23,393 bases of DNA from a virus. Below are positions 4,016 through 21,412 of this stretch, one piece after another. The position numbers were made by a program, and so were the translations under genes. The notes below the pieces were generated by a model that saw nothing but the letters and a program-made list of their open reading frames with translations, did not search any database and was not told the DNA's origin. Positions within the stretch are counted from its first letter, which is position 1, and each line of letters begins with the position of its first letter. Location: positions 1 through 23,393 of the IMG/VR virus record IMGVR_UViG_3300035097_000006; one strand, written 5' to 3'.

Positions 4016-5557
4016 ATGCCCAGGGTGATGCTGCCGTATCCGCCGACCGATCGGGAAATGCTGTGGTGGTCGGTGCAGGCGCTACTCGGGGTGACCATTC
4101 CGCGGACCAAGGTCTGCCCTGACCACTGCTCTCCGTTCGACGCCTTCGCCGACGCCTACTTCCGGGAATGCACTTTGCCCGGGTATGAGGGGTCGATCTC
4201 GAGGGCGATCTGGCACGCGAGCCGCGGCCTGGCCGGGAAGTCCTACACCGTGGCGACGTTGGGCCTGTTCTACGCCTACGTCATCGGCGCCGACATCACT
4301 ATCCTCGGTGGCTCACTGGCGCAGTCGAACAACGTCCACGAGTACATGGTCCGGGCGATGGACTTCGAGGGGATCCCCGGCACGATGACCGTCGACCAGA
4401 CGGCCACCAAGACCGTGCTGACCAACGCCGGCCGGGTTCGCCCTCTTCCCGCCAGCCAGCGCAACGTCCGCGGCCCGCACCCGTCGATCCTGCTCATCGA
4501 CGAGGCCGACGAGATGGACCTGCCGATCTACGACGCGGCGCTGGGCCAGCCGCTGCCGCAGAAGAACTACCTGAACCAGACCGTCGACACCTTCACCGTG
4601 GTGAGCTCCACCTGGCAGAACCCGGACGCGACGTTCACCGAGATCCTGAAGCGGGCCGAGGAGAAGCACCAGCCCGTTTACCGCTGGTGCTACAAGGAGT
4701 CGGCGAACCCGGTGGATGGCTGGCTGACCCAGGCCACCATCCAGGAGAAGATCGACTCCGTCTCGGCGGAGATGTTCCGGGTGGAGTACGACCTCGGTGA
4801 GCCCTCGATCGGCAACCGGGCCTTCGATACCGAGGCCATCGAGAAGACCTTCAGCCTGAAGTTCGACTCCACCGATGTAGTCGGGGAGGGCCATGGCCAC
4901 ATCGAGCACAAGGTGTCGAAGGACTTCGAGGAGTACCGGTTCGCCCGGCGGGTCAACACCGCCTCCTACGTGGCGGGCGCCGATTGGGCCAAAGAACAGG
5001 ACAAAACGGTCATCTGGGTGGCTCGGATCGACGGTCCGAAGCGCGAGCTCGTCTACTTCCTCCGGCTGAACCGGCGACCATATCCGCAGATGATCGGCTA
5101 TCTGAACAAGGCCATCTCGTACTACCGAGTCCCCCTGAAGGGGGTGTGGCACGACTCCACCGGCCTCGGCAACGTCGTCAACGACTACCTCGACGTGCGG
5201 GCCCGGCCGTTCCCGATGACCGGCGACAAGCGGGCCGTGCTGCTCTCCGACTACGTCAACGCGGTGGAGAAGGGCAGCTGGAAGATTCCGCGGATCACCA
5301 GCGCCTGGCTCGAACACAAGTACTGCACCACAGGCGACCTGTACGGCTACGGTCCTGGCAACCACCTCCCGGACACGGTGTGCGCGGCCGCGCTCGCCGA
5401 GTACGCCGCGAAGCGGTTCACCGGCGTCGGCGTTCCGGCGGTGGTCGTCCGCAGCAACGTTCCGTCGAAGATGGAGCGCGAGTTCACCGGCACCGACGAC
5501 GCCGCCAAGGCCGAGCTCAGCCCGGATCAGCCGGTGACGTTCGAGCTTGTGCTGTAG
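4016..5557 (+). CDS. terL: terminase large subunit (ATPase and nuclease)
   Basis: TerL pumps DNA into the prohead and cuts it. This 513-aa protein has both expected domains. The ATPase domain has a Walker A variant, SRGLAGKS, at residues 69-76, with K75 and S76 contacting nucleotide. Its Walker B is ILLIDE at residues 158-163, with D162 and E163 as metal and catalytic residues. A likely coupling motif, VVSSTWQNP, follows. The RNase H-like nuclease domain shows VAGADWAKEQDKT (D323) and GVWHDSTGLG (D380), two of the usual metal-binding aspartates. Length is normal for the family. There is no clear Shine-Dalgarno at the ATG; a second in-frame ATG lies four codons in. No small terminase subunit is seen next to it. 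The last 41 bases overlap the end of a convergent regulator gene. Confidence 0.93.
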   Translation: MPRVMLPYPPTDREMLWWSVQALLGVTIPRTKVCPDHCSPFDAFADAYFRECTLPGYEGSISRAIWHASRGLAGKSYTVATLGLFYAYVIGADITILGGSLAQSNNVHEYMVRAMDFEGIPGTMTVDQTATKTVLTNAGRVRPLPASQRNVRGPHPSILLIDEADEMDLPIYDAALGQPLPQKNYLNQTVDTFTVVSSTWQNPDATFTEILKRAEEKHQPVYRWCYKESANPVDGWLTQATIQEKIDSVSAEMFRVEYDLGEPSIGNRAFDTEAIEKTFSLKFDSTDVVGEGHGHIEHKVSKDFEEYRFARRVNTASYVAGADWAKEQDKTVIWVARIDGPKRELVYFLRLNRRPYPQMIGYLNKAISYYRVPLKGVWHDSTGLGNVVNDYLDVRARPFPMTGDKRAVLLSDYVNAVEKGSWKIPRITSAWLEHKYCTTGDLYGYGPGNHLPDTVCAAALAEYAAKRFTGVGVPAVVVRSNVPSKMEREFTGTDDAAKAELSPDQPVTFELVL

Positions 5558-5944: not shown

Positions 5945-7525
5945 GTGACCCGACCGGGGCGCGTGGATCAGCTCGAAGCCGACGTCAGCGACGAGATCAA
6001 GCAGTTCTCGCCGATGCTGGAGGTCGGTTCTACCGGTCTGCAGCGCTCCGGTGGTTACGTCAACGACGAGTTCCTCCCGCAGTTGCGCGGTCGGCAGGCC
6101 GTCAAGATCTACCGGGAGATGAGCGACAACTCATCGGTCCTGGGCGCCTGGATGTACACCGTCAAGCAGCTGCTGCGGCAGATCGAGTGGCGCGTCGAGC
6201 CGGCGTCGAGCAAGCCCGAGGACAAGCAGAACGCCGAGTTCGTCGAGCTGGCACTGGGCGACATGGAGCACAGCTTCGCCGATTTCATCTCCGAGGCGTG
6301 CTCGATGATGACCTACGGCTGGTCGGTGCACGAAATCGTGTTCAAGCGACGGATGGGGCTGTGGAGCAAGGACCAACGACACAAGAGCAAGTTCAACGAC
6401 GGCAAGATCGGCTGGCGCAAGCTGCCGATCCGCAGTCAGGACTCACTACTGCGCTGGGTGTTCGCCGAGAACGGCGACGTCGAGGCCATGGTGCAGATGC
6501 CGGCGCCGAAGTACCAGAAGATCGTGTTGCCGATATCGAAGCTGCTGCTGCTGCGGCCCGACCTCAACAAGGGGTCACCCGAGGGCCGGTCCCTGCTGCG
6601 CTCCGCGTACCGGCCGTGGTTCATGACCAAGCGGTTCGAAGAGATCGAGGCCGTCGGCGTCGAGCGTGACCTGACCGGTCTGCCGGTGGCGTTCGTGCCA
6701 CCGAACGTGCTGAACCCCCGTCCGGGTAGCGCCGACGCCAAGATGCTCGAGGCGGTGAAACGGGCGGTCACCGCGGTGCGTCGCAACGAGCAGGAAGGCC
6801 TCGTCTGGCCGCTGATCTACGACGACGACGGTAACAAGCAGTACGACTTCCAGCTGCTCACCTCCGGCGGCAGCCGCCAGTTCGACGTCGGCGCGATCAT
6901 CCAGCGGTACGAGACCCGGATGCTGATGTCGGTGATGGCCGATTTCATCATGACGGGACACGAGAACAGCGGGTCCAGCTACGCGCTGCACACCGACAAG
7001 TCAGGGATCTTCGAGACCGGCGTCAACGGCATCGCCAAGGCGTTCGCCGACCCGTTCAACCGCAAGGCGATTCCGCAGCTGTTCAAGCTCAACGGGTTGC
7101 AGCCCGACGACCTGCCGACGCTGGTGCCGAACAACGTCAACCCGCCCGACCTGGCACAGCTGGCGGCGTTCATCAGCAGTACCGCCGGGGCCGGCATGAC
7201 GTGGTTCCCCGACGGCGAGCTCGAGAAGTTCATCCGCGACGCGGCGCAGCTGCCGAAGGTGGACCCGGCGATCACCGAGCAGCACGACATTCAGATGCGG
7301 CAGCAGGCGATTCTGGCGCTGGCCGAGCAGAAGATGCAGGCCGTTCAGATGCAGATGCAGGCCGCCCAGGGTGAACAGGGCCTGGTGCAGGGCGAGCAGC
7401 AGATCGCCGGTTCTGCTCAGACCCAGCAGATCGAAGCGGATCAGGCCAAGCAGGAGGCGAAGCAGTTGGCGGCCAAACCGACGCCGAGAGCCAAGCCCAA
7501 AGGAAAGGGAGTCGGCACTCGATGA
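5945..7525 (+). CDS. portal protein
   Basis: This 526-aa protein resembles the DUF935/gp6-like portal families. The portal is the dodecameric ring at the capsid vertex through which DNA enters and leaves. Supporting segments include 'RQAVKIYREMSDNSSVLGAW' and 'LLRQIEWRVEPAS' near the N-terminus. Further on are 'ALGDMEHSFADFISEACSMMTYGWSVHEIVFKRR' and 'LPIRSQDSLLRWVF', then 'SPEGRSLLRSAYRPWFMTKRFEEIEAVGVERDLTGLPV', which is highly typical of this family. The C-terminal tail (from about residue 440) is rich in Gln, Ala and Lys and is probably a helical crown or barrel. The start is GTG at 5945, preceded by a strong GGAGGGG site. An upstream start is not needed. Its stop overlaps the next ATG (ATGA). 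Size and position after terL fit well. Confidence 0.9.
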   Translation: MTRPGRVDQLEADVSDEIKQFSPMLEVGSTGLQRSGGYVNDEFLPQLRGRQAVKIYREMSDNSSVLGAWMYTVKQLLRQIEWRVEPASSKPEDKQNAEFVELALGDMEHSFADFISEACSMMTYGWSVHEIVFKRRMGLWSKDQRHKSKFNDGKIGWRKLPIRSQDSLLRWVFAENGDVEAMVQMPAPKYQKIVLPISKLLLLRPDLNKGSPEGRSLLRSAYRPWFMTKRFEEIEAVGVERDLTGLPVAFVPPNVLNPRPGSADAKMLEAVKRAVTAVRRNEQEGLVWPLIYDDDGNKQYDFQLLTSGGSRQFDVGAIIQRYETRMLMSVMADFIMTGHENSGSSYALHTDKSGIFETGVNGIAKAFADPFNRKAIPQLFKLNGLQPDDLPTLVPNNVNPPDLAQLAAFISSTAGAGMTWFPDGELEKFIRDAAQLPKVDPAITEQHDIQMRQQAILALAEQKMQAVQMQMQAAQGEQGLVQGEQQIAGSAQTQQIEADQAKQEAKQLAAKPTPRAKPKGKGVGTR

Positions 7526-10500: not shown

Positions 10501-10893
10501 GTCGACACCCCGACCGGCACCCCGGATCCGTTCGACACCGCCGCCCGCGCGCTGAGGTCGAAGCTGGAGGATGCGAATCGCAAGCACATTCGGCTGCGTT
10601 CGGTCGGCGGTCAGCCAGATCTGGCGGCGCAGCAGGCTGACATGCGTACCGCCGGGGCGCTGGCCCGGGCGATGCAGCTGCGCCGTCGCTGGGTCGACGC
10701 GGACAAGAACCGGCCACCGGCACCGCCGACGCCGCCGAACAACGGGCCGGTCAACCAGGTGATCCTGGCCCAGGGTCCCGGCGGGGCCCCGGTTCCGTTG
10801 AACCAGGCTCAGCTGATGGGGTTCCTCAACAACCTCAACAACCCCAACGCGTTCAATCCCAACGCCTCTAATGTCGTCAACGGCATTCCGTGA
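7522..10893 (+). CDS. large head-region protein of unknown function
   Basis: This 1123-aa protein follows the portal with a 4-base ATGA overlap and runs into the next gene with a GTGA overlap, so it is certainly co-translated with head genes. I recognise no catalytic domain. The N-terminal part (residues 1-200) is helical and charged. A central portion (about 375-525) has a well-ordered, aromatic-rich sequence including DDWYLPFNLRHLSALKGGEY, RTRTFGGPTTEDIYTGLV and NGVYTVDFDRNL, likely a folded beta domain. The region 540-720 is rich in helices (LRELQTKEKARPTLSQQEQL). The C-terminus is a Pro/Asn-rich low-complexity tail ending NNLNNPNAFNPNASNVVNG. In many phages this gene slot holds a MuF-like minor head protein or an ejection protein, but neither signature is visible here. 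A virion protein associated with the portal is the best inference. Confidence 0.6.
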   Translation: MKTLTAVDRWADTGPGFNRHAAEVVYKAMTAMDDDSALVYGRILVAGAVNYDLISHRDELAKAAGDQARQRAETLRAHYSREAVAKARRGQDNTEEIAILVQIEKAFNYTPEERRRYVSAQARQHGRFVQMHHQIDTDPSSPPADQTRAEKQGIPSNTLLSGKDLSHYQQAYGQIQDLLAPFHSEHLNPLLHLQVVGRNGKERTVQAPVQATEKDVKTDFSASIKPGDRILTAAVSVTPERGRADTAAFDALAAAGAPRLGGYVGHAVNEGVLNSEKVRELNTKRGARQENENFSAAGRAFGRLERGSEILRTSMGPAAPPQLQYALAVANHVGQFGPEAQKVIGPAADRAAYRYRGTERAPDPVLQTAFGKIRQVRFRGLNPRDVAVGGIDDPKEGWDPGPVLNYFQDRLPNPDLNELQRRSGVIPPSEGIVITANGDVAHQSIGYADDWYLPFNLRHLSALKGGEYIRTRTFGGPTTEDIYTGLVSGAKSMTIVSHNGVYTVDFDRNLRGGRRFNDKASRMVARYGQLLDALRSEQVGRGSISPSRMEELRETAREYDPDESSEAFTHRLRELQTKEKARPTLSQQEQLEAAANWVGEQAADTLDNSGNALRSDEYVTRLVNAQAKTAWQANVATARQMGVDPAFKVEAFQEQIWAGLQTGTPLEQIGAIADLAGKRSSFDRAMKQADQANRDRVRSLRLDGEGYNDALNALHEQFPYYIAKPVYHPWRASQGVGPNRTLERAVDSGYVAPRFNRPEKAEGGYFNESVTGAGKITAQSTRYQNFRVGQGKLVPVPKEQTAEEVRNKAAGRHAGTAGAVTDKDLQRAADLDMLTEVLAQTSFASGAEFNVGGKVVDASGLNIRAEAKLDTFPHAAIKQVFGAVDRADLEALPHDDLHRLMLDLAAVATGPKKAFSLKQVVLDRVRTGGRVAPPEAPPASLGELLSELDKDHVFPGGGAAYDPARPASVAEIERAYGAETSIQNLVSAGELLPVDTPTGTPDPFDTAARALRSKLEDANRKHIRLRSVGGQPDLAAQQADMRTAGALARAMQLRRRWVDADKNRPPAPPTPPNNGPVNQVILAQGPGGAPVPLNQAQLMGFLNNLNNPNAFNPNASNVVNGIP

Positions 10894-12668
10894 CCCCGCG
10901 CGAAAAGCGCGACGTGGCAGTGGATCTCGCCGCGTGCGTGCTGGCTCTCTACCAGTGCGTGGGGCGGGTCCTGGCGGAGCAGCCGCCTCGCGTCGGGGCC
11001 ACCGAGGAGCAGGCCAAGGCGGCGTTCGCAGCCTGCTCGGCGCAGTGGAAGACACTGGTCGGGCAGGCCGCCCGGGACGCTGTCGCACTCGCCCCCGCGG
11101 CCTCGGTCCCCACTGACGGCCGGTCCCGGATCGGGCTGGCTCGGCAGTACGCCGCGCAACTGGGCACCGCGGTCAGCACCGACGCCGCGGCGGCGCTGTC
11201 GGTCGCGATGGACACCGAGCTGGCTCGCGGCCAGCATCCGGAGGTGGCCTGGCAGCGGGCCGTCGCCGGGTACGGACTGGTTACCGCCGCGATGCGGACC
11301 TACCTCGCTGCGGTGACCCGGCGCGGCAAGAACCTCGCGGCACCACTGGCCACGGCGAAGCTGGCCGCTCAGCGCGCGTTGCTGGCGCAGGTCGACCGGA
11401 TCGGCAACCGGGAGGCCACCGCCTGGGCCCAGCTCCCGGTTCCCCGGACCCCGATAGCCAAGATCGTCACGCTCGTCAAGGTGTTCGACCCCGACGAGCT
11501 GCGCGACGAGGGTGGCCGCTGGACCGCCGGCGGCCGGACGAAGCTGCGGGTGAAGGAGAAGGCCGACGCCGTCGACGAGTTGCTGTCCGAGACGCCGGTC
11601 GAAGCGCCGGTCGACCGTTGGGCCGCCGCGGCCGCTGCTGCCGCCGCTGATCGCTACGCACCGGCACCGACCGATCGGTGGGCCGCCGCTGCCGCCACTG
11701 CCGATCGCTGGGCACCGGCGCCGGCCGACCGCTGGGCACCGGCCGCCACCGCCGCTCCGGCCGACCGCTGGGCCGAAGCTGCCGCGGCCGCGTCCGCTGA
11801 TCGCTGGGCGCCGGCTGCCGCCCCGGCGCCCAATGTCCGGCGGTTGATCTACTTCATCGGGGCCGCCGAGCCGAACAAGACACCCGCGCCGGCACCGGCC
11901 AGGGAGGCGGCCGACGACGACTACGGCCTGTACGTGCCGATGCAGGGGCTGCACCACTACTTCTACGACCACGCCATGAACAACCGGGGCAAGTTCGTCA
12001 CCAACGCGGTGAACTTCCAGGTCGTCCTCGAGTACCTGACCGATTTCCACGGCCGGACCGACCCGATCGAGATGAAGGAATCCCGGTCGCCGTGGAGCGT
12101 CGCGGTCGGTATCGAGGGCATCTCCGACGACGACTGGCAGGCCGCGCTGGCGCTGGCGGTGCCGCTGTGGGACGAGGTGGGGAAGAACCCGCTACGGGCG
12201 ATCAACGCGCTCGGGCCGATGGAGCGGGCGGTGATCGCCGAGCACGCCGGATACCGGCCACGCTCGGAGGCCGGTACCAAGCAGTTGCTGATCGACAACG
12301 AGTACCTGCGGGCCAACGGCGTCCAGCAGGGCCGCGACTCCGACAACGCGCACATCCGCTACGACATGGGGCTGTCGGACGCGCTGGCCGACTATGTCGT
12401 CTGGAACAACCCGCGGGTGATGGGCCCGAAGGGCGCCGCGCTGGAGGACCTCCTCGATGACCGCGGCCTCCGGCTGCCGCTGGACATCACCGCGCTTCCC
12501 GAGGTGCTGAACCTGAGTTCGGGGCTCAGTCCGGACGATGACGGCGGGGACCTGCGCGGTACCTACCGGATCGACACTACGCACTACCACTCGGCGATCG
12601 GCGAGTTCGACTACGCGGCACCCAAGGGGAAGATCGCGCTGCGGGAGACCCATATCGAACCGGAGTAG
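10890..12668 (+). CDS. minor head-region protein with DRWA repeats
   Basis: This is a 592-aa protein with a GTG start that overlaps the previous stop. Residues 1-190 are alpha-helical and Ala-rich; 'AVAGYGLVTAAMRTYLAAVTRRGKN' and 'LAQVDRIGNREATAWAQL' vaguely recall minor head (MuF-associated) proteins. Residues 199-215 read FDPDELRDEGGRWTAGG, a short motif seen in many phage portal-adjacent and MuF fusion proteins. Residues 242-310 are a low-complexity linker with seven DRWA/DRYA units separated by Ala/Pro runs. The C-terminal 260 residues, from DDDYGLYVPMQGLHHYFYDHAM onward, appear to be a globular domain that I do not recognise. It contains His and Asp clusters but no pattern that I can tie to an enzyme. 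The modular layout (helical domain, motif, flexible linker, C-terminal domain) suggests a virion-attached effector or minor head protein; this is inference. Confidence 0.55.
   Translation: MTPREKRDVAVDLAACVLALYQCVGRVLAEQPPRVGATEEQAKAAFAACSAQWKTLVGQAARDAVALAPAASVPTDGRSRIGLARQYAAQLGTAVSTDAAAALSVAMDTELARGQHPEVAWQRAVAGYGLVTAAMRTYLAAVTRRGKNLAAPLATAKLAAQRALLAQVDRIGNREATAWAQLPVPRTPIAKIVTLVKVFDPDELRDEGGRWTAGGRTKLRVKEKADAVDELLSETPVEAPVDRWAAAAAAAAADRYAPAPTDRWAAAAATADRWAPAPADRWAPAATAAPADRWAEAAAAASADRWAPAAAPAPNVRRLIYFIGAAEPNKTPAPAPAREAADDDYGLYVPMQGLHHYFYDHAMNNRGKFVTNAVNFQVVLEYLTDFHGRTDPIEMKESRSPWSVAVGIEGISDDDWQAALALAVPLWDEVGKNPLRAINALGPMERAVIAEHAGYRPRSEAGTKQLLIDNEYLRANGVQQGRDSDNAHIRYDMGLSDALADYVVWNNPRVMGPKGAALEDLLDDRGLRLPLDITALPEVLNLSSGLSPDDDGGDLRGTYRIDTTHYHSAIGEFDYAAPKGKIALRETHIEPE
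11613..11820 (+). repeat. DRWA-Ala/Pro linker repeats
   Basis: Seven units of gac/gat-cgN-tgg/tac-gc (Asp-Arg-Trp/Tyr-Ala), spaced 8-14 codons apart, encode residues 242-310 of the 592-aa protein. The spacers are Ala/Pro/Thr-rich and vary in length, which suggests expansion by replication slippage. The regular Trp within a disordered linker is unusual and may be a binding element. Confidence 0.75.
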
Positions 12669-12699: not shown

Positions 12700-14337
12700 A
12701 TGCCGACCTCTCCCCCTGCCGCCATCGACCCGGTGTTCGCCGAGGTCGCCAAGGCGATCTACGGGGACGTCGACCCGCGAGAAATCGCCAAGTTCAGTCC
12801 TGGCGGGGCCGACCTGCACGCCGACGGCCCGATGACGCCGGAGCAGGCGAAGAAGCAGAAGAAGCTCGCGCTGGTCGGCCTCGGCGCTACCGGTCTCGCC
12901 ACGGTGGGTGCTGGGCACGCCATCAGTGCCTCCGTCCTGGAGCACCGGCACCGCATCGCCGAGGCACGTGGCGAGCCGCCGCCGGTGCCCAAGGTGAAGA
13001 ACGGCCTGCACCGCCAGGCCGCCCGGGCCGTCGCCCGGAAGCTGAAGCTCAGCCCGGTGAAGACGGCGGGCATCATCGGCGCCGGTGTGCTCGGACTGCA
13101 CGGCGTGGAGCTCGCCAGCGACGTGCTCGGTGCGCACGCCCAGACGAAGCAGCTCCGGGAAGCCAACAAGCAACTCGGGCCCAAGAAGCCGGTGGCGAAG
13201 GCTTTCCGGCTGCGGCCGCTCAACTCACTGCCCGACCAGGTGCCCAGCCTGCGGGCGAAGCGCCCCCGGACGACTCCGCTCCCGGCCAACCCGCGAACGA
13301 AACGTGGTGTGTTCCAACCAGTCTCGAAGGTTGGGGACGTCACGTGGACCGGCTTGTTCAGCAAGGTCGACACCGACAAGCGGCAGGTGTTCGGCTGGGC
13401 CTCGGTCAGTCAGATCAACGGCGAGGACGTCGTCGACCTGCAGGGCGACATCGTCCCGATCGAGGAAATCGAGAAGTCCGCCTACAAGTACGTTCTCGAT
13501 TCCCGCAAGGGCGGGGATATGCACCGCCGGGTGTCCAAGCTCGACGACGGAACCGTGCCGCACCACACCGCGGACATGATCGAGAGTTTCGTCGTCACCC
13601 CGGAGAAGCTCGAGAAGATGGGGCTGCCACCCAACGCCCTGCCTCTCGGATGGTGGGTCGGGTACCACGTCAATGACGACGAGCAGTGGTCGCTGGTGAA
13701 GTCCGGAGCGCGCGCCGGTTTCAGCATCCACGGCAGTGGTACCCGCACCACGGTGTCGAAGATGGGTCCCGAGGTGAAGGACTGGGACGTCTACCACGCG
13801 CTGCGGCGCAAGGGGAAAACCAAGACCTCTGCGGCCAAGATCGCCAATTCGGTGTCCAAGAGCATTCGTGAGGATCTCGACGACGGTCGCAAGCGGCGTC
13901 CGCTCCGATTGAAGGAGCGGACCAGGCAGGCGGTACACCCGCCGCCGGTGAAACTGAAGCCGGTGACCTCGTCGGCGATCGACTCGATGGGCTACCAGCG
14001 CCAGACCCGGCGGCTCTCCGTGCAGATGCACTCCAACCTGGGTCGGCCCTATCAGTACCGGGTGGACCCGAAGGAAGCCTCGGCAGCGCTCAACGCTCCG
14101 TCGCTGGGACATCACTACGCCACCCAGGTCCGCGGCAAAGCGCAGCGAGCCACCCGCTACACCCTCGCCGACCGGGCCCGGTTGTTCGCCAAGCCCGATG
14201 TGTCCAAGGGGTTGTTCAAGGTCAAGCAGGCCATCGACAGTGTGAAGGCCGCTCCGGCCGAGCTGATGAAGCCGCTCGCGACGATGGCGCCAGTGAAGCC
14301 GGGTCTCAAGCCGATCGGAAAGGTTCCTCTCGGATGA
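12700..14337 (+). CDS. XkdF-type prohead protease with hydrophobic N-terminal region
   Basis: Prohead proteases remove scaffold and trim head proteins during capsid maturation. Residues about 212-360 match the putative phage serine protease XkdF family (Peptidase_S78_2): 'VFGWASVSQINGEDVVDLQGDIVPIEEIEKSAYKYV', 'GGDMHRRVSKL', 'ADMIESFVVT', 'GWWVGYHVNDDEQWSLVKSGARAGFSIHG'. The probable catalytic residues are H275 and S342. Unusually, the first 200 residues hold two glycine-rich hydrophobic segments (about 56-75 and 122-145) separated by basic helices, like the small basic proteins encoded downstream. The N-terminal AIYGDVDPREIAKF (residues 19-32) may be a degenerate copy of their shared SAFGV motif. 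The basic C-terminal tail (370-545) is unassigned. The ATG start is 31 bases after the previous stop without a strong Shine-Dalgarno. The stop overlaps the next gene (ATGA). The protease call is strong; the catalytic pair is by family analogy. Confidence 0.85.
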   Translation: MPTSPPAAIDPVFAEVAKAIYGDVDPREIAKFSPGGADLHADGPMTPEQAKKQKKLALVGLGATGLATVGAGHAISASVLEHRHRIAEARGEPPPVPKVKNGLHRQAARAVARKLKLSPVKTAGIIGAGVLGLHGVELASDVLGAHAQTKQLREANKQLGPKKPVAKAFRLRPLNSLPDQVPSLRAKRPRTTPLPANPRTKRGVFQPVSKVGDVTWTGLFSKVDTDKRQVFGWASVSQINGEDVVDLQGDIVPIEEIEKSAYKYVLDSRKGGDMHRRVSKLDDGTVPHHTADMIESFVVTPEKLEKMGLPPNALPLGWWVGYHVNDDEQWSLVKSGARAGFSIHGSGTRTTVSKMGPEVKDWDVYHALRRKGKTKTSAAKIANSVSKSIREDLDDGRKRRPLRLKERTRQAVHPPPVKLKPVTSSAIDSMGYQRQTRRLSVQMHSNLGRPYQYRVDPKEASAALNAPSLGHHYATQVRGKAQRATRYTLADRARLFAKPDVSKGLFKVKQAIDSVKAAPAELMKPLATMAPVKPGLKPIGKVPLG

Positions 14338-16529
14338 CGGATACCACGGAAACGGCTGCATCCCTGCGGACAAAGGCCCGGCGGCAGCAGCAGGACAACG
14401 CGAAGCACCACCTGCGGGCCGCCGGTGGGGCCATGGCCCTCGTGGGCGGCTCCGGGCTGGCCATCAATGCAAGTGAACGTCGCTTCGCGGCGAAGGCCGC
14501 CGCACACAAGATGGCGGTGAACGCCCGCACCAGGGAGAAGTACTTCCGCGGCCCATCGGGGCAGCCTTCTCGGCCGACCGACAACGAGTTCGCCCGTGCC
14601 AAGATGCTCGGCCGCCGGTACCGGCGCGCCGGCCGGGTTCGCGCTGGCACCGCCGGTCTGGCGGTCGCCGGCGCGGCGACCATGCTCCACCAGGGGCACA
14701 AGGCCGACAAGGGCGACAAAGAGGTGCGCGAACTGCGGGCCAGGGCGAACAAGCTGGCTCGCGCCGAGCGCCCGGTCTCCCGGCGCCCGGTCACCAAGCG
14801 GGATGCGCTCGGGGTCGAGATCAGCAAGGACGAGCCGCCGACCGCCGCAGCGCTGCGCGAGTCGGCGAAGGCAAACCGGAAGCAGGGGTCCAAGCATCGG
14901 TTGGTGGCCATCGGCTCCGGACTCGCGTCGTACGGAGGACTGCATGGTGCGGTCGCGGCCCGGAACAAGCAGGCCGGCGTCCTGGCCGATGCGTTCGAGT
15001 TGCAGCGCCGAGTGGGACAGCGGCGGAACATGGCGACCCCCGAGCAACTCGAGCGGGCCGTCGCACTCGGCCGGACCCACCGGCTGGCCCGGGCCGGCAA
15101 GATAGCGGGTCTCACCACTGCAGCGGTGGCCACTCCGGTGGCGTGGCACCAGAGCGCGAAAGCCAATTCGCTCGACGCCAAGGCGCGGCAGCAGAACTGG
15201 CGGGCCCGGAAGATGGAGCGCGCCGAGCAGAAGGCCACCCGGGTGGCCAAGGTCGATGCGTTCGGTGTCGACCGTGAGGCGCTGTTCAAGGCGGACACCC
15301 CACTGCCGGGCGACAACCCGCATGCCGAAGCGGCCCGGCGCCGCCGGAAGGCGGGTCTCACCGTCGCCGGTGTCGGCTACCTGGCCTCCTCGCGCACCAA
15401 GGACGTCGCGCCGGGTGCGGCCGATTTCCTCACCCGGCCGCAGAAGGCACTGAACCGGAAGGGGATCAGCCCGAAGGCACGGGCCCGGATAGTCGACATG
15501 CGGGCCGCGAAGATGACGCGAATGGGCGGAAAGGCCGGCTTCGTCCTGGTGGGTACCGGAATCGGCGGTGCTGCCGAGGGCGCGGTGACCGACTTGCGGG
15601 AGCGTGATGCGCTGCGGCGGACCAGGGAGCAGGCGAGAGTGAAACTGCAGGCGAAGAAGCAGGAACGGCTGACCAAATCGGCGTTCGGCGTCGACCACGG
15701 TGACGTCGGGAAGGCCTATCAGCCGGGGTCGATCACTCTCCACCAGGAGCAGGCGGATCTGCACGCCCGGAAGAAGGGCTCCGCGCAGCGCCGGATGGAA
15801 GGCGGACTGATCGCCATCCCGGCCAGTGCGGCGGTCGCAAGTGCAGCGCATCGGGTCGCGCCGAATATCGCCGAGATGGTCCACGGCAAGTCCCGGGTCG
15901 GCGACAAGGTGGCGGATCGCGTCAAGCTCATCCGCCAGATTCGCCACGGCGCCAAGGTCGGTGGCGTGGTCGGTACCGCCGGTGGGGCCATGGTGGCCAC
16001 CGAGGGCGCCCTCTCGCGGGTCCGGCACGCGCACGGCCAGAACAAGGAGACCAAGCGGGCCCAGCAGGCGCGCAAGGCTCGCAACGCCACTCTCACGAAG
16101 GCGTTCGACTCCGAGCGGGCCCGGCACGGTCGCCAGGACATGTACGCCAGTGGTGCCACCGGTGGCGCGATCCTCGCCGGCGGTGCCGGAGTCGCCACCG
16201 GCGTGGCCGGTCGCCGGGCCGGTGCAGCCAGCCATGCCGAGGAACAGGAAAGCAAGAAGGCGTACCGGAAGGCGCGGTCCAACCTGAGCAGCATGGCCTC
16301 GAGCTCGAAGGGCACCAAGCCCAAGACGGCGGCGAACATCAAGGAGACTCAGGACCACCTCGCGCGAATGATGGAGCACCACGACGCCGCTGGGAACTTC
16401 GCCACCAGGGCCAAGAGGTTCCACCGGATTTCGCGCGCTTCACTGGCCGGCGCGGCCGTGCTGGGCACGGGAGCGTATGCCGCCCACGACTACGACCGCC
16501 GCCGCGGCGGTCGTTCCTACGGTTACTGA
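14334..16529 (+). CDS. tandem-module basic glycine-rich internal protein (polyprotein-like)
   Basis: This 731-aa protein is very rich in Lys, Arg, Ala and Gly. It divides into five units at copies of a short motif: DALGVEISKDE at residue 157, DAFGVDREALFKAD at 308, SAFGVDHGDVGKAY at 449 and the weak AFDSERARHGR at 590. Intervals are 151, 141 and 141 residues, and the last unit is 142 residues long. Each unit carries a basic helix and a glycine-rich hydrophobic segment (for example RLVAIGSGLASYGGLHGAV). A charged stretch and a second hydrophobic segment (for example AGKIAGLTTAAVATPVAW) follow, then another basic helix. It has no known enzymatic domain. Lying between the protease and scaffold genes, it could be a set of fused internal head proteins that are cleaved at the motifs and injected to act at the membrane or on DNA. 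That role is inferred; the repeat structure is directly visible. Confidence 0.7.
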   Translation: MTDTTETAASLRTKARRQQQDNAKHHLRAAGGAMALVGGSGLAINASERRFAAKAAAHKMAVNARTREKYFRGPSGQPSRPTDNEFARAKMLGRRYRRAGRVRAGTAGLAVAGAATMLHQGHKADKGDKEVRELRARANKLARAERPVSRRPVTKRDALGVEISKDEPPTAAALRESAKANRKQGSKHRLVAIGSGLASYGGLHGAVAARNKQAGVLADAFELQRRVGQRRNMATPEQLERAVALGRTHRLARAGKIAGLTTAAVATPVAWHQSAKANSLDAKARQQNWRARKMERAEQKATRVAKVDAFGVDREALFKADTPLPGDNPHAEAARRRRKAGLTVAGVGYLASSRTKDVAPGAADFLTRPQKALNRKGISPKARARIVDMRAAKMTRMGGKAGFVLVGTGIGGAAEGAVTDLRERDALRRTREQARVKLQAKKQERLTKSAFGVDHGDVGKAYQPGSITLHQEQADLHARKKGSAQRRMEGGLIAIPASAAVASAAHRVAPNIAEMVHGKSRVGDKVADRVKLIRQIRHGAKVGGVVGTAGGAMVATEGALSRVRHAHGQNKETKRAQQARKARNATLTKAFDSERARHGRQDMYASGATGGAILAGGAGVATGVAGRRAGAASHAEEQESKKAYRKARSNLSSMASSSKGTKPKTAANIKETQDHLARMMEHHDAAGNFATRAKRFHRISRASLAGAAVLGTGAYAAHDYDRRRGGRSYGY

Positions 16530-16541
16530 GAAGGGTCGCCG

Positions 16542-17075
16542 ATGTCGTCATTCGGTCCTGGAGAAGCTCCCATCTCCAAGAAGGGCGTGTACCGCAACGT
16601 GCGGGCGGCCGCTGAGAACGCAAGCCAGGCGTCGTCGCATGCCGAAGAGACCGCCAGGAAGATCAAGCTCCTGGTCCCCACGAGGCGAACCGCCGCCCTG
16701 GCAGCTGCTGGGCTCGGGACCGCACTGACCGGTGCGACCTATGCGGGGACCAAGGCCGGTACCTATGCGGGAACCCGGCCGGCCCGGAAGAAGGTCAAGA
16801 AGTCGGCGTTCGGCGTCGATGACGACCGGATCAGCAAAGCTGACGCCGACCCGTTGCAGCCACCGAAGGACCGCAAGAAGCTGAAGTACGCCGGTGCCAT
16901 CTTCGGCACCGGCATGCTCGCGGGACACGGCGGACGGGCCATCGCCCGTGCCGCCGGGGCCAGCGCGAAGACGCAGGGCGCAGTGTTCAATACCGCCGGT
17001 GCCGCCGGCTACGTCGGTGGCGGAATGGGCTACGCGGCCCACCGTCGGACCCAGAACTACGGGAGTGTCGGATGA
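16542..17075 (+). CDS. small basic glycine-rich protein, SAFGV-motif family
   Basis: This 177-aa protein starts at ATG 16542, twelve bases after the previous stop. Its N-terminus, SSFGPGEAPISKKG, looks like a diverged copy of the shared motif. A clear copy, SAFGVDDDRISKAD, begins at residue 88 after a basic stretch (RPARKKVKK), so the protein appears to hold two units. The first has hydrophobic glycine-zipper residues about 48-77 (TAALAAAGLGTALTGATYAG). The second has KYAGAIFGTGMLAGHGGRAI and a following GAAGYVGGGMGYAAH. The composition suggests a small membrane-inserting, DNA-tolerant (basic) protein. It is probably co-packaged in the head with its neighbours, as inferred from operon position. 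The stop overlaps the next start (ATGA). No function can be assigned from sequence alone. Confidence 0.65.
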   Translation: MSSFGPGEAPISKKGVYRNVRAAAENASQASSHAEETARKIKLLVPTRRTAALAAAGLGTALTGATYAGTKAGTYAGTRPARKKVKKSAFGVDDDRISKADADPLQPPKDRKKLKYAGAIFGTGMLAGHGGRAIARAAGASAKTQGAVFNTAGAAGYVGGGMGYAAHRRTQNYGSVG

Positions 17076-17401
17076 ACCTGTCAGCGTTCGGAGTCGAGGA
17101 CGGCCGCATCTCCAAGGCGGAGCGCAAGCCTGCGAGCGGGGGTCGGACCGCCGCCGGAATGCTCTTCCCCGGTTACCACGGCGCGCTCGTCGGGAAGCCG
17201 GGCAAGAAGCTGCGCTCGGTGGGCAACGAGCTCGGCGGCAACATCGGCGGAGGTCTCGTCGGGGCTACCGCGGGACGGCTCATTGCCCGCAAGAACCCGG
17301 CTGTCGGCACAATGATCGGCGCTCAGGCCGGTGGCTTGACCGGGGGCGGCCTCGGAACCCGTCGTGCGCATCGCCGGGGCTACTACAAGCCGGAACGGTA
17401 A
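17072..17401 (+). CDS. small glycine-zipper protein with N-terminal SAFGV motif
   Basis: This 109-aa protein begins MNLSAFGVEDGRISKAERK, an intact copy of the shared motif directly at the N-terminus. The remainder is glycine-rich with GxxxG spacing: 'GNELGGNIGGGLVGATAGRLIARKN' and 'GTMIGAQAGGLTGGGLGTRRAHRRG'. This is a pattern of close-packed membrane helices or amyloid-like/glycine-zipper proteins. It ends in a basic tail. It overlaps the gene before it by 4 bases, and its TAA shares a base with the ATG of the ADP-ribosyltransferase gene (TAATG), so its translation is probably coupled to that gene. It is the shortest stand-alone member of the family here. A role as an internal, injected membrane protein is an inference from composition and context. 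Confidence 0.7.
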   Translation: MNLSAFGVEDGRISKAERKPASGGRTAAGMLFPGYHGALVGKPGKKLRSVGNELGGNIGGGLVGATAGRLIARKNPAVGTMIGAQAGGLTGGGLGTRRAHRRGYYKPER

Positions 17402-18711
17402 TGCTCTCGGCCTTCGGGGTCGATGACGGCCGACTGGTCAAGGCCAAAAAGCTGACCGACGAGCAGAAGCGCACCGCCACCGGTGTCGGCGTCACCGGGG
17501 CGGGCGTCTACGGCTACCACGCGGGGACGTCCCTGCGTGCCCGCAACACCGCGCAACACCTGTCCGACCCGGAGCGGGCGAAGCACGCGGCGGAGACGAT
17601 GGCCGCTCAGCGCGGCCATGCGGCGACCGAGAGTGTCTCCACCCCCTACGAGGGGATTCGGAGGCAGCAGTCGGCGTACGACAAGGCAACGAAGGCGAAC
17701 CCGGATGTGAAGCGGGTCCGGGATTCCGCCGACCGGTGGTCGAGCACCTTTCGTTCGGTCAAGCGGATCCGCCGCGCCTACGACAAAGAGGCTCCGGTCC
17801 CCGGGGTGGGCCGGGTGCTGCTGCGCCCGGTCAAGTCCAAGGCCGAGTCCGATTCGAACGTGATGCGCCATCTCAACAACGCCAAGACCGAGGGACCGAC
17901 CCTGCACCGCGGGATGCGCACCGCCAAGCAGAGCTACAAGGTCGGCGACGAGGTGGATTTCCACGACCTCACGTCCTGGTCCGCCGACAAGAAGGTCGCG
18001 GGTCATTTCGCCGCTCGCGGCAGGGCCAAGCACGGGACGCCGCACGTCTTCCAGCGGGACCCCGGGCATGCCACGTCGTACGAGTCGGCCTCCCCGCAGT
18101 TCCAGCAGCGGGAGTGGGTCGCCGGCGGCAAGCACAAGGTCACCGGTATCAACCCCGACGGGTCGATCCGGGTCAGCCACATCAAGGCCGCCACCAACTT
18201 CGCCCGCTTCGCCAAGTTCGCAACCAGCACCGAGGAGATCACCATGGCCATGTCGGCGTTCGGCGTCGAGGACAGCCGGCTCAGCAAGGCCGACGACCGG
18301 CGGACCTCGACCGGGCTGGCGGCGACCTCGGGTGCTGTCGGCGGCGCCGGTGGCGTGGTGCTGTCCGCACGACGCGAGCTCGGACAGCACAAGGACCTGA
18401 TGGCCACCGCGGCTGAGCACGGCGACAACGCCAAGTTCTACGGAGGCCGACAGGCCAGTCACAACCGCCGGGTCGCCAGGGCTGCCGCCGGCCGAGCTCC
18501 CGGCTGGAGCTCCGTGGCCGCCGAGCACGCCGGCAACGCGCATGTATTCGGTGGCCTGGCAGCCGAGAACAAGGCCGATCAGGCCCGGGCCCTGCGGAGA
18601 GCGAAGAACATCCGGGGTGTCGTCGGCGTTCGGGCCGGGGTCGGACTCGCCGCCGGTGCGGCGGGAGCCGGTCTCGGTGCGGCGATCCACAACCGCGGAA
18701 AGAGGTCCTGA
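17401..18711 (+). CDS. ADP-ribosyltransferase with SAFGV motif, fused to a second SAFGV unit
   Basis: This 436-aa protein begins MLSAFGVDDGRLVKAK, the shared N-terminal motif, followed by one hydrophobic segment and charged helices. Residues about 150-275 carry the ADP-ribosyltransferase signature. It comprises TLHRGM (R170, NAD binding), a DLTSWSAD segment (S192-W-S194) with a helix ending in HFAARG, and FQQREWVAGGKHKV with Q236-R237-E238 (catalytic Glu). Q-x-E in place of E-x-E is the form seen in C3-like enzymes that modify Asn rather than Arg. At residue 282 a new unit starts in frame, MAMSAFGVEDSRLSKAD, preceded by its own GAGGAG ribosome-binding site. It has a glycine-rich segment at each end. 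T4 Alt is a precedent for an ART packaged in the head and injected. Start chosen at 17401 because it overlaps the preceding stop (TAATG) and places the motif at the N-terminus. The target is unknown. Confidence 0.82.
   Translation: MLSAFGVDDGRLVKAKKLTDEQKRTATGVGVTGAGVYGYHAGTSLRARNTAQHLSDPERAKHAAETMAAQRGHAATESVSTPYEGIRRQQSAYDKATKANPDVKRVRDSADRWSSTFRSVKRIRRAYDKEAPVPGVGRVLLRPVKSKAESDSNVMRHLNNAKTEGPTLHRGMRTAKQSYKVGDEVDFHDLTSWSADKKVAGHFAARGRAKHGTPHVFQRDPGHATSYESASPQFQQREWVAGGKHKVTGINPDGSIRVSHIKAATNFARFAKFATSTEEITMAMSAFGVEDSRLSKADDRRTSTGLAATSGAVGGAGGVVLSARRELGQHKDLMATAAEHGDNAKFYGGRQASHNRRVARAAAGRAPGWSSVAAEHAGNAHVFGGLAAENKADQARALRRAKNIRGVVGVRAGVGLAAGAAGAGLGAAIHNRGKRS
18232..18246 (+). promoter_or_regulatory. 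internal ribosome-binding site and start within the ART gene
   Basis: GAGGAG at 18232-18237 is followed six bases later by ATG at 18244, and a second ATG lies at 18250. Translation from here gives a 155-aa protein ending at 18711 that starts MAMSAFGVEDSRLSKAD, just like the stand-alone family members. The ART frame has no stop before it. The gene may therefore produce both a long fusion and a short product, or be a recent fusion of two neighbouring genes. Confidence 0.5.
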
Positions 18712-18763
18712 CATGGTCCTGTCGGCGTTCGGCGTCGAGGACGGTTGGCTCAGCAAGGCCGAC
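18253..18763 (+). repeat. near-identical 42-bp motif repeats at 18253-18294 and 18722-18763
   Basis: The two copies of the motif-coding DNA share their first 21 bases and the last 17, with three mismatches over 42 bases. Such DNA-level identity in otherwise diverged genes suggests recent duplication of the motif or recombination through it. Confidence 0.75.
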
Positions 18764-19099
18764 GGTGACGGGCGGCGGCGAGCTGCGAACGTCGGTGCCA
18801 CGCTTACCGGCGCGGCGGCCGGTGGTTTCGGAGCCAACGCAGCCCACACCGAGTTGGAGTCCCGCAGAGCCGGACGAGCGGCCAGCGTCCGCCGCTTCCG
18901 GGTTGTCAACCAGAGTCTCCGCGATCTTGCTGGCAGCAAGACGGGCGAGGCGGCAAACACGGCCCGACAAGCGGCCTGGCTGGAAAACGCCTCCAAGGAT
19001 CTCGGTCGCAAGGCGGTGCGCAGAGGTACCGCAGCTACCGGGCTGGCAGTGGCGTCCGGCGGGCTGGCCCTCTACGGCCACCACCGCAAGAAGTCCTGA
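18713..19099 (+). CDS. small basic glycine-rich protein with N-terminal SAFGV motif
   Basis: This 128-aa protein starts at ATG 18713, one base after the preceding stop (TGACATG). It reads MVLSAFGVEDGWLSKADGDG, the shared motif at the N-terminus. A glycine-rich hydrophobic segment follows (NVGATLTGAAAGGFGANAA, about residues 24-43). A charged central region comes next (ELESRRAGRAASVRRFRVVNQSLRDLAG...), then a second hydrophobic segment (TAATGLAVASGGLALYGHH) and a basic end, KKS. This two-hydrophobic-segment layout is the same as that of the units in the 731-aa protein. The longer open frame starting upstream at 18542 is not used, because it would overlap the previous gene heavily. The function is unknown. 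It is inferred to be co-packaged with the other family members. Confidence 0.72.
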   Translation: MVLSAFGVEDGWLSKADGDGRRRAANVGATLTGAAAGGFGANAAHTELESRRAGRAASVRRFRVVNQSLRDLAGSKTGEAANTARQAAWLENASKDLGRKAVRRGTAATGLAVASGGLALYGHHRKKS

Positions 19100-19122
19100 G
19101 CCTGCGTCTTGCACGCCCTCAG
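19096..19122 (+). other. weak interrupted hairpin before the scaffold-like gene
   Basis: CTGAG pairs with CTCAG, and inside that GCGT pairs with ACGC around a 5-base loop, with unpaired cct/c between the two helices. There is no T-run. It could be a minor attenuator or processing site between the internal-protein genes and the capsid genes, or have no role. Confidence 0.25.
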
Positions 19123-19148
19123 AGACTTAGACCAAAGGAGGAGAACAC

Positions 19149-19979
19149 GTGCCACGAGCAGTGCAACGGGTCACCGATATGGAAATCGACGAGGTTTCCA
19201 TGGTCGATCGAGCCGCCTGCCCGCCCGCAACGATCGTGTTCTCCAAACGCGCTGACCAGGAGGAAAGCATGCCGGACTACCTCGATGCGGACGGCGAGCC
19301 GCTCGACCTGAGTCAGTTCGAGGAAGGCGACATCCTCGAAGACGACGACGGTAACCAGTTCATGGTCACCTTCGGGGACCCCGAGGATGCCGATGACGTC
19401 GACTACGACGATGCCGACGAACTCGACGACGATCGCGAACTCGTCGGAATCGGCAAATCGGCGTTCGGTGCGCCGGCCGAGGACCCGGTGATCGCTTCCA
19501 TCCGCGAATCGCTGTCCAAGGCGGTGAACGAGCAGGACCGCGACGCCGTCCTGTCGAAGGCGTTCACCTCCCTGAGCAAGCGGGCTCAGCAGGCCGAGTC
19601 CCAGCTGGCCCACGCCGCGCAGATCGCCAAGAGCGAGCGCGACCTGCGGCTGCAGCGGGAGTACATCTCCAAGGCCGCCGAGTACAACGTGCCGATCGAT
19701 GCCGAGGAGCTCGGACCGGTGCTGATGCGGGCCGCGGAGGCGTTGTCCTACGACGACTGCGCCGTGATCCACAAGGCTCTGTCCGCCGCCGGCGCGATGC
19801 TCTACGAGGAGGCCGGCTACGACGGCATGGGCGCTCCCGAGGATCCGATGGACCAGATCGACGCCTTCCTCGGCGACGTGGTGTCCAAGGGGCAGGGCAT
19901 GACGCCCGAGCTCGCAACGACCGCCTTCTTCGACAGCAACCCGGGTGCGTACGACGCCATCCGGGCCGAGCGGCGCTGA
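19149..19979 (+). CDS. scaffold-like capsid assembly protein
   Basis: This 276-aa acidic protein has a GTG start after a strong AAAGGAGG site at 19134-19141, consistent with high expression. Residues 8-34, 'VTDMEIDEVSMVDRAACPPATIVFSKR', match a segment (DEVSLVDxxANxxAxxVxxKR) frequent in phage prohead protease and scaffold proteins. An Asp/Glu-rich stretch (about 43-98) follows, then GKSAFGAPAEDPV at 102-114, a copy of the motif shared by the upstream basic proteins. The rest is a helical, probably coiled-coil region (LSKRAQQAESQLAHAAQIAKSERDLRLQREYISKAA), ending with short helices. Position just before the decoration and major capsid genes, size and helicity fit a scaffold. An internal ATG at 19270 could give a shorter form. 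The scaffold role is inferred; no catalytic residues are apparent. Confidence 0.7.
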   Translation: MPRAVQRVTDMEIDEVSMVDRAACPPATIVFSKRADQEESMPDYLDADGEPLDLSQFEEGDILEDDDGNQFMVTFGDPEDADDVDYDDADELDDDRELVGIGKSAFGAPAEDPVIASIRESLSKAVNEQDRDAVLSKAFTSLSKRAQQAESQLAHAAQIAKSERDLRLQREYISKAAEYNVPIDAEELGPVLMRAAEALSYDDCAVIHKALSAAGAMLYEEAGYDGMGAPEDPMDQIDAFLGDVVSKGQGMTPELATTAFFDSNPGAYDAIRAERR

Positions 19980-19989
19980 GGAGCCCCCC

Positions 19990-20394
19990 ATGGCATATGA
20001 CGAAACACTCCGATCCATCTCGCTGGATTCGGACGACACGATCGGCTTCTACACCGGGGTGCCGGGGGCGCGCGGTTCGCTCTCCCCCAACGGCGGGAAG
20101 CAGTACCACTTCGTGGACATCACCGGTCCGCACCAGTGCGGACTGGCAGGTGCGGGCGCCGAGGCCATCGGTGTCCTGCAGAACAAGCCGCAGTACGCCG
20201 GTGAGGCCGCCACGGTCGCCATCGGTGGCATCAGCCTGGTGGTCGCCGGCGGCGTGCTCGAGGCGGGCGACAAGGTCTCTGCCAACGCCGACGGCAGGGG
20301 CATCAAGACCACCAGTACCAACGCAGTTCTAGGCCGGGTCATCCTCGGCGCCGGTGACGGCGAACTCGCCGCTGTTCTTCTGCTGACGAGCTGA
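19990..20394 (+). CDS. capsid decoration protein (DUF2190-like)
   Basis: This 134-aa protein begins MAYDETLRSISLDSDD. It consists of short beta strands and Gly-rich turns: GVLQNKPQYAGEAATVAIGGISLVVAGGVLEAGDKVSANADGRGI, then AVLGRVILGAGDGELAAVLL. This is the layout of the small capsid decoration or cement proteins (DUF2190 and relatives), which stabilise the capsid lattice from outside and lie next to the major capsid gene. ATG 19990 was chosen because GAGGAG overlapping the preceding stop lies just upstream; the frame is open further 5' but overlaps the scaffold gene. It lies 13 bases before the major capsid gene. Good family resemblance by pattern. Confidence 0.72.
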   Translation: MAYDETLRSISLDSDDTIGFYTGVPGARGSLSPNGGKQYHFVDITGPHQCGLAGAGAEAIGVLQNKPQYAGEAATVAIGGISLVVAGGVLEAGDKVSANADGRGIKTTSTNAVLGRVILGAGDGELAAVLLLTS

Positions 20395-20407: not shown

Positions 20408-21412
20408 ATGCCACAGAACCCCGGCGGTCCTGATCTTCACATTGATCGACCGCTCACCAACGTCTCGGTCGCGTACTTCCAGGACCCCAACGACTTCATC
20501 GCCGACAAGGTGTTCCCGGCGATCCCGGTCGACAAGCGGTCCGACATGTACTGGAAGTACACCAAGTCGGATTGGCGTCGCTCGGACTCGCAGAAGCGAG
20601 CACCCGGTACCGAGTCGGCCGGCATCGGCTGGTCGAACCAGACCGGGACGTACTACTGCGACGTCTACGCCGCGCACGTCGACATCGACGCGCAGACCAG
20701 GGCGAACGCCGACAGCAACTGGAACCTGGATTCCGACGCCAGCAGGCTGGTCACCCAGCACCTGCTGCTGCAGAAGGACCGGATCTGGGGCCAGAAGTAC
20801 TTCAAGCCCGGGGTCTGGAACAAGGAGTACCAGGGCGTCGCCGCCAGCCCGAGCGGGGACAGTGAGTTCCTGCAGCTCGACCAGGCCTCCAGCGACCCGC
20901 TGAACCTGTCCACCGGCTGGCTCACCGCCTTCCGGCTGGACATCGGCCGCAAGGCCAACTTCATGGTCGTCGGGGTCGACGTCTGGAAGGCGATCAAGAA
21001 CCACGAGGCGATCCTCGACCGGATCAAGTACACCCAGAAGGGCGTCATCACCGAGGAGCTCGTCGCCGAGTTCTTCGGCATCGACGACATCTACGTGGGC
21101 TACGCCTCCGAGGCCGTCGGCCCGCAGATCAACGACGGCGTCCTCCAGGACGAACAGACCGACTACGAGTGGATGCTCGACCCGAAGTCCATGCTGATCG
21201 GGTACCGCCCGAAGCGGCCCGGACTGCTGGAGCCGTCGGCGGGCTACACCTTCAACTGGCGGGGCTACGGCGCCGGCAACCGGTACGGGCTCACTATGAG
21301 CAACTTCCCGGACCTGAAGACCCGCTCGGATCGGATCGAGGGCGAGGCCGCCTACTCCCTGGAGCAGGTGTCCAAGGACTGCGGCATGTTCTACAAGAAC
21401 GTGGTCGGCTGA
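20408..21412 (+). CDS. major capsid protein
   Basis: This is a 334-aa protein whose N-terminus, 'HIDRPLTNVSVAYFQDPNDFIADKVFPAIPVDKRSDMYWKYTKSDWRR', is very typical of a widespread actinophage and siphophage major capsid family with the HK97 fold. Other typical parts are 'IGWSNQTGTYYCDVYAAHVDID', the A-domain-like 'FRLDIGRKANFMVVGVDVWKAIKNHEAILDRIKYTQKGVITEELVAEFFGIDDIYVGYA', and the ending 'ADxxTxSNFPDLKTRSDRIEGEAAYSLEQVSKDCGMFYKNVVG'-like tail. It forms the capsid shell. There is no long N-terminal delta domain, consistent with a separate scaffold gene upstream. It starts at ATG 20408 after GAGAGG. A strong hairpin follows the stop, as expected after a highly expressed gene. Confidence 0.92.
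   Translation: MPQNPGGPDLHIDRPLTNVSVAYFQDPNDFIADKVFPAIPVDKRSDMYWKYTKSDWRRSDSQKRAPGTESAGIGWSNQTGTYYCDVYAAHVDIDAQTRANADSNWNLDSDASRLVTQHLLLQKDRIWGQKYFKPGVWNKEYQGVAASPSGDSEFLQLDQASSDPLNLSTGWLTAFRLDIGRKANFMVVGVDVWKAIKNHEAILDRIKYTQKGVITEELVAEFFGIDDIYVGYASEAVGPQINDGVLQDEQTDYEWMLDPKSMLIGYRPKRPGLLEPSAGYTFNWRGYGAGNRYGLTMSNFPDLKTRSDRIEGEAAYSLEQVSKDCGMFYKNVVG

Follow-up and report, generated by a model that had tools for sequence, protein, structure and literature searches.

A short peptide shared by otherwise unrelated basic proteins is a candidate capsid-targeting and release signal in a group of uncultured phages

Main

The internal proteins of phage T4 carry leaders of 10–19 residues in which targeting residues come first and processing residues last, with cleavage after [LI]-x-E (PMC9026906, PMC12373910). 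In the T-even proteins Ip1-3 this leader is the sole shared part; the T4 cargo includes the ADP-ribosyltransferase Alt (PMC9026906, PMC12373910). The T4 scaffold is itself degraded by the prohead protease at multiple sites (PMC9026906). In phage P1, an N-terminal signal, described for DarB, loads injected defence proteins, with no consensus among Dar N-termini (PMC9024508). In phiKZ/SPN3US (gp175/gp245), numerous head and ejection proteins lose propeptides that bear cleavage motifs, by more than one cut (PMC10052503).

Here we describe a window of 23,393 bases, a complete IMG/VR record of which all frames were read, in which one short peptide recurs through adjacent genes. The arrangement resembles the T4 capsid-targeting leader (CTS) and gp21 in that a short leader, its putative targeting part first and processing part last, precedes otherwise unrelated basic proteins; a hydrophobic residue at the predicted P3, probable cutting of the scaffold at multiple sites and a protease whose predicted fold may be similar are further likenesses. 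It differs in the tag sequence, in the predicted P1 residue (Lys here, Glu in the [LI]xE of T4), in tags that can be N- or C-terminal with the site relocated, in multi-tag polyproteins, in a far larger number of cargo families and in belonging to another phage lineage with an XkdF/PF14550 protease. Because the N-tagged proteins (159/159) have [IVLF]-x-K and not [L/I]-x-E, we regard the tag as an analogue of the T4 CTS rather than a member of it. Unlike in the Dar system, one consensus is common to many proteins (PMC9024508). The phiKZ/SPN3US propeptides, unlike the tag, are mostly 100–250 residues long (two are of 20 and 24) and are cut at a different residue, and the accessible part of that report mentions no shared short tag (PMC10052503).

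Results

Tagged genes lie between protease and scaffold

The head module of the window comprises terminase, portal, proteins of 1123 and 592 aa, protease, five tagged genes, scaffold, cement and major capsid protein (MCP). The genes that frame the tagged block are as follows (gene starts here and below are inferred).

4016-5557, + strand: probable large terminase (Pfam PF17289 Terminase_6C, weak and under the cut-off; synteny conserved)
5945-7525, + strand: portal protein (PF06074 Portal_Mu, 3e-28)
12700-14337, + strand: XkdF-type prohead protease with N-terminal region, DUF7218 and KTSC domains (PF14550, 3.8e-14)
19149-19979, + strand: acidic scaffold protein, pI 4.1, with many [ILVF][SAG]K[AS] sites (motif counts; synteny between protease and cement/MCP genes)
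19945-20394, + strand: capsid cement/decoration protein (phrog_673, 9e-16; PF09956)
20408-21412, + strand: MCP, poor in the cleavage motif (phrog_1005, 6e-76)

Relatives keep the gene order portal, large protein, protease, [tagged genes], scaffold, cement, MCP, [tagged genes], connector-like genes. Elsewhere in the window, imperfect repeats of the (A)DRWAPA type form a run in the 592-aa protein (10890-12668), and 2549-3634, in the tail or baseplate region, encodes a propeller-like repeat protein with repeated IAFGNG.FVA units.

Seven clear tags of the form SAFGV[DE]-x(4)-x-K-A occur in five genes between protease and scaffold, with the Ala codons of the exact copies at 15258, 15681, 16806, 17084, 17410, 18256 and 18725.

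14334-16529, + strand: 731-aa multi-unit basic protein, tags at unit boundaries, two clear plus weak forms (translation, pattern scan, site list)
14802-14837, + strand: weak tag DALGVEISKDEP in gene 14334-16529 (translation, site list)
15255-15296, + strand: tag DAFGVDREALFKAD (pattern scan)
15678-15716, + strand: tag SAFGVDHGDVGKA (pattern scan)
16092-16130, + strand: weak unit boundary LTKAFDSERARHG in gene 14334-16529 (translation, site list)
16542-17075, + strand: 177-aa basic, Gly-rich protein whose internal tag is its sole scored phi-x-K site (translation, site list)
16803-16841, + strand: tag SAFGVDDDRISKA, residues 88-100 of the 177-aa protein (pattern scan)
17072-17401, + strand: 109-aa N-tagged glycine-zipper-like protein (PF13441, 0.0012, under the cut-off)
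17081-17119, + strand: tag SAFGVEDGRISKA (pattern scan)
17401-18711, + strand: 436-aa N-tagged protein with a second tag and a possible ADP-ribosyltransferase-like segment (residue pattern by eye)
17407-17445, + strand: tag SAFGVDDGRLVKA (pattern scan)
18253-18291, + strand: second tag of the 436-aa gene, SAFGVEDSRLSKA, with GAGGAG and then ATG at 18244 ahead (translation, site list)
18713-19099, + strand: 128-aa N-tagged basic protein (pattern scan, site list)
18722-18760, + strand: tag SAFGVEDGWLSKA (pattern scan)
19458-19523, + strand: degenerate scaffold tag SAFGAPAEDPVIASIRESLSKA (translation, scaffold comparison)

All seven tags are in frame on the + strand, with none on the - strand and none in the reversed pattern; 0 were expected from dinucleotide shuffles and 0.003 from residue shuffles, on which ground we reject a chance origin. 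As 18226-18260 holds a ribosome-binding-like GAGGAG ahead of the in-frame ATG at 18244, the second copy in the 436-aa gene may also yield a separate N-tagged protein. The initial annotation had seen the motif in six consecutive genes of the protease-to-capsid block, at the N-termini of stand-alone proteins and at unit boundaries of long ones, and the window translations bear this out, the scaffold being the sixth gene; the form it had seen within the scaffold-like protein is the diverged KSAFGAPAED...ESLSKA.

The tag and a Lys site are separable parts

Related IMG/VR contigs hold 207 distinct tags, 155 N-terminal, 34 C-terminal and 18 internal. Just after the tag, [ILVF]-x-K was present in 159/159 N-tagged proteins, compared with 10.7 expected (maximum 19) from random segments of the same proteins, all sequences being counted without phylogeny correction in this and the other shuffle tests. 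At C-terminal tags, phi-x-K was upstream in 33/34 (expected 3.0, maximum 8) and downstream in 1/34. Since N-terminal tags precede the site and C-terminal tags follow it, the Lys site stands between tag and cargo at either end, which fits a site that releases cargo from tag. A looser later scan served as a hold-out: of its 16 new matches, 13 look real and all 13 obey the rule, and three (L195, L227 and L228) look like chance. In L195 and L228, from other viral contigs, SAFGVDHG occurs by chance within proteins of 2,500 aa, outside any tag context.

Tags in a tandem array across adjacent genes could be the relic of a recent gene duplication, or the translation of a DNA-level element such as a recombination or mobile sequence. 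Tag Ser, however, is encoded as often by TCN as by AGY, and each of the four possible codons occurs for Ala, for Gly and for Val, indicating selection on the peptide; we reject a DNA-level repeat on wobble and Ser codon use, and the tags are always in frame. Recent duplication is rejected because the cargo is mostly unrelated, and C-terminal tags with a relocated site also speak against a relic. We consider an origin of this kind extremely improbable.

The Lys motif is enriched in the scaffold

Among 22 scaffolds (<70% identity), we counted 142 [ILVF][SAG]K[AS] sites versus 2.8 ± 1.7 in shuffles, a 50-fold enrichment, and 84% of 275 scaffold Lys residues had I/V/L/F at -2. In contrast, 19 MCPs had only two such sites. 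A motif rich in the scaffold and near-absent from the MCP points to a protease cleavage site and, as the T4 prohead protease cuts its scaffold to pieces, the simplest reading is that [ILVF]-[SAG]-K-[AS] is the putative cleavage consensus of the prohead protease. Scaffolds also carry a stretched tag, KSAF[FG]...ELSKA (GKSAF[FG]-type in 52/78), suggesting that the tag may mimic a scaffold segment.

In the bodies of N-tagged cargo, [ILVF][SAGET]K was depleted two-fold (41 versus 81 ± 8.5; 0/300 shuffles). Arg and reversed control motifs showed no depletion in these bodies. Neither was there depletion of [ILVF]SK alone in cargo bodies, nor any in C-tagged bodies.

An XkdF-type protease is the probable processor

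The window protease matches the PF14550 profile at 53.2 bits (curated cut-off, 24). In the catalytic domain, S137, H67 and H139 (numbering of the homologue L038) are invariant in 43 protease sequences and are putative catalytic residues. AlphaFold modelled this domain (residues 1-145) mostly at pLDDT 70-95, and the best structural match of the model was T4 gp21 (5jbl_C; Z 7.2 over 110 residues, 3.1 Å; next Z 5.1), a modest score, as Z below 8 is a range where unrelated folds can also score; the match agrees with the Pfam assignment and gene position. Foldseek returned no match at E <= 0.001 for the whole protease model because of its disordered tail. An invariant Lys of the N-terminal region, K31, is set within I-[SA]-K, and Lys sites lie just before the catalytic domain in the window protein and its homologues; both are compatible with self-processing and suggest that the protease may cleave itself and have a separate leader.

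In the relative L038/L088, a 1099-aa frame fuses the protease to tagged cargo units related to the multi-unit protein of 14334-16529. In the L038 fusion model the tag is undocked and disordered (pLDDT <50), and the model thus points to no docking partner. From the protease fusion, the multi-unit protein of the window and the cleavage-like site that always adjoins the tag, one could argue that SAFGV[DE]H is a mere protease exosite, that is, a signal for polyprotein or substrate processing, with capsid loading a side effect or absent. Most tagged proteins, however, are single and short and could do without processing if their leader served no other purpose; the tagged proteins are uniformly basic and clustered in the head module, and many of the scaffold's cleavage-like sites come without the full tag. 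We therefore hold a processing-only role to be unlikely, and infer that the XkdF-type protease processes a tag that also targets.

The tag is widespread among uncultured relatives

When IMG/VR was scanned with the coded pattern, 43 contigs besides the window matched; in nearly all of them several adjacent genes begin with M-x-SAFGV[DE]HG-x-[IV]SKA. PF14550 was present in 19 of these 43 contigs, among them most of the long ones. Searching by scaffold led to 80 loci, of which 63 had strict tags, 196 on the same strand as the scaffold versus two on the opposite strand. Most of the 17 loci without a strict tag hold variants (SAFGVYDDRLIEK, NAFGV[DEQ]H.P[IV]SK, DAFGVDREVVSK and SAFLDESVSKA), and at a few scaffold loci (L117, L143 and L145) no tag-like stretch was seen. 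Outside the capsid block, several genomes (L168-L174) have a second set of N-tagged genes, located upstream of the protease by ~6-21 kb.

Neither the tag pattern nor the scaffold profile was found in 84,980 cellular genomes, the pattern requiring His at position 7 and thus covering the commoner H-subtype while missing the window's own D-subtype; within that scope, the tag is not the widespread host-protein motif that the initial annotation had weighed against its own reading. The tag 20-mer had no tblastn match in 50,697 phage records, and a search for the motif in the open literature (most subscription papers being outside its scope) gave unrelated papers only, with the tag not described.

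The initial annotation had looked to actinophages and had proposed a motif search of other phages. The nearest named MCPs, at 36-39% identity, are those of Microbacterium and Arthrobacter phages, which hints at such an origin. Arthrobacter phages Salgado and Ottawa and Microbacterium phage ValentiniPuff are alike in MCP (36-39%), in cement and in a scaffold with [ILVF][AS]K[AS]-like sites; their inspected genes between portal/protease and MCP had no tag. The tag marks protease-to-capsid genes in IMG/VR relatives and was not seen in the inspected genes of the named phages, and the actinophage assignment stands only as that hint. Scaffold-like proteins with [ILVF][AS]K[AS]-like sites were seen in cultured Arthrobacter/Microbacterium phages without the tag (L182 gp24, L183 gp54 and L184 gp98).

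At the level of predicted proteins, the pattern is general: one short peptide is shared by many otherwise unrelated proteins of strong positive charge, in this virus and in uncultured relatives that number in the dozens.

Tagged proteins are basic, mostly Cys-free and diverse

The 217 tagged proteins fall into 53 families (single linkage, E<1e-3), in which Gly/Ala-rich members may be over-merged. All 200 cargoes scored (159 N-tagged and 41 C-tagged) had pI >9, and 90% were Cys-free, compared with 11% basic and 22% Cys-free among untagged conserved neighbours at the same loci. Most cargoes have no Pfam family; a tagged GNAT acetyltransferase (L048) passes the Pfam cut-off, and one C-tagged protein, of 67 aa, belongs to DUF7218.

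For the 17401-18711 product, an R-S-E-like pattern (LHRG, SWSADKKVAGHF, FQQREW) was seen by eye only. It had no Pfam match even at E 10 and none in PHROGs, PDB sequences or phage records, and a single-sequence model (pLDDT 39.5) was uninformative on fold. Given no profile, PDB-sequence or phage match and an unusable model, we do not claim a 436-aa ADP-ribosyltransferase; an ADP-ribosyltransferase-like segment is possible.

Uncharged, Gly-rich stretches 19 or more residues long occur in 58% of N-tagged and 90% of C-tagged cargoes, and several tagged genes have MCP and connector-like genes as neighbours, as might be expected if the tag marked minor structural or neck/tail-lumen proteins of the portal vertex or ejection channel and not DNA-associated head cargo. 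Yet some 53 patchy families would be unexpected for an obligate channel, and the GNAT enzyme and the DUF7218 protein carry the tag. We judge a channel role improbable, more so than a role in processing alone.

Discussion

We propose, with a probability of roughly 0.77, that the tag is a bipartite capsid-targeting and release signal by which basic cargo would be loaded into the prohead and then freed. During head assembly, the SAFGV[DE][HD] part would serve for docking, with the scaffold core or the protease as partner. The [IVLF]-[S/A/E]-K part would be the release site, cut after Lys by the XkdF-type protease, and cargo would be released in one step with scaffold breakdown at the many [ILVF]-[SAG]-K-[AS] sites. 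Once mature, the cargo, basic and mostly free of Cys, would remain in the head with the DNA and would probably be ejected into the host at infection.

The basis of this proposal is in the sequences themselves: the motif, the bipartite orientation rule (tag and site separable, the site always on the way from tag to cargo), the scaffold sites, the basic cargo chemistry and the synteny of a single head module. Across ~110 related IMG/VR contigs, these lend support to the suggestion in the initial annotation of a packaging and/or cleavage tag, analogous to the T4 CTS, with the XkdF-type protease as its likely processor. Counting against the proposal are the tagged genes upstream of the protease, the null outcome of part of the depletion tests, the undocked tag in the fusion model and the modest Z score of the gp21 match.

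Packaged and injected phage proteins are normally found virion by virion through proteomics, and a readable tag would turn this into a sequence search. For this phage group, of which the collections searched contain no cultured member, it names ~200 proteins as predicted head cargo. It further predicts a cleavage specificity for prohead proteases of the XkdF type, and the tag is itself a candidate module for putting foreign proteins into phage heads. The comparison with T4 suggests that a CTS-like strategy may have arisen in another lineage too. There is perhaps an even chance that a whole phage group plugs ~50 unrelated families, host-modifying enzymes included, into its head, through tags at either terminus or in polyproteins. 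If true, injected effectors would be directly readable from the genomes of the phage group with the tag.
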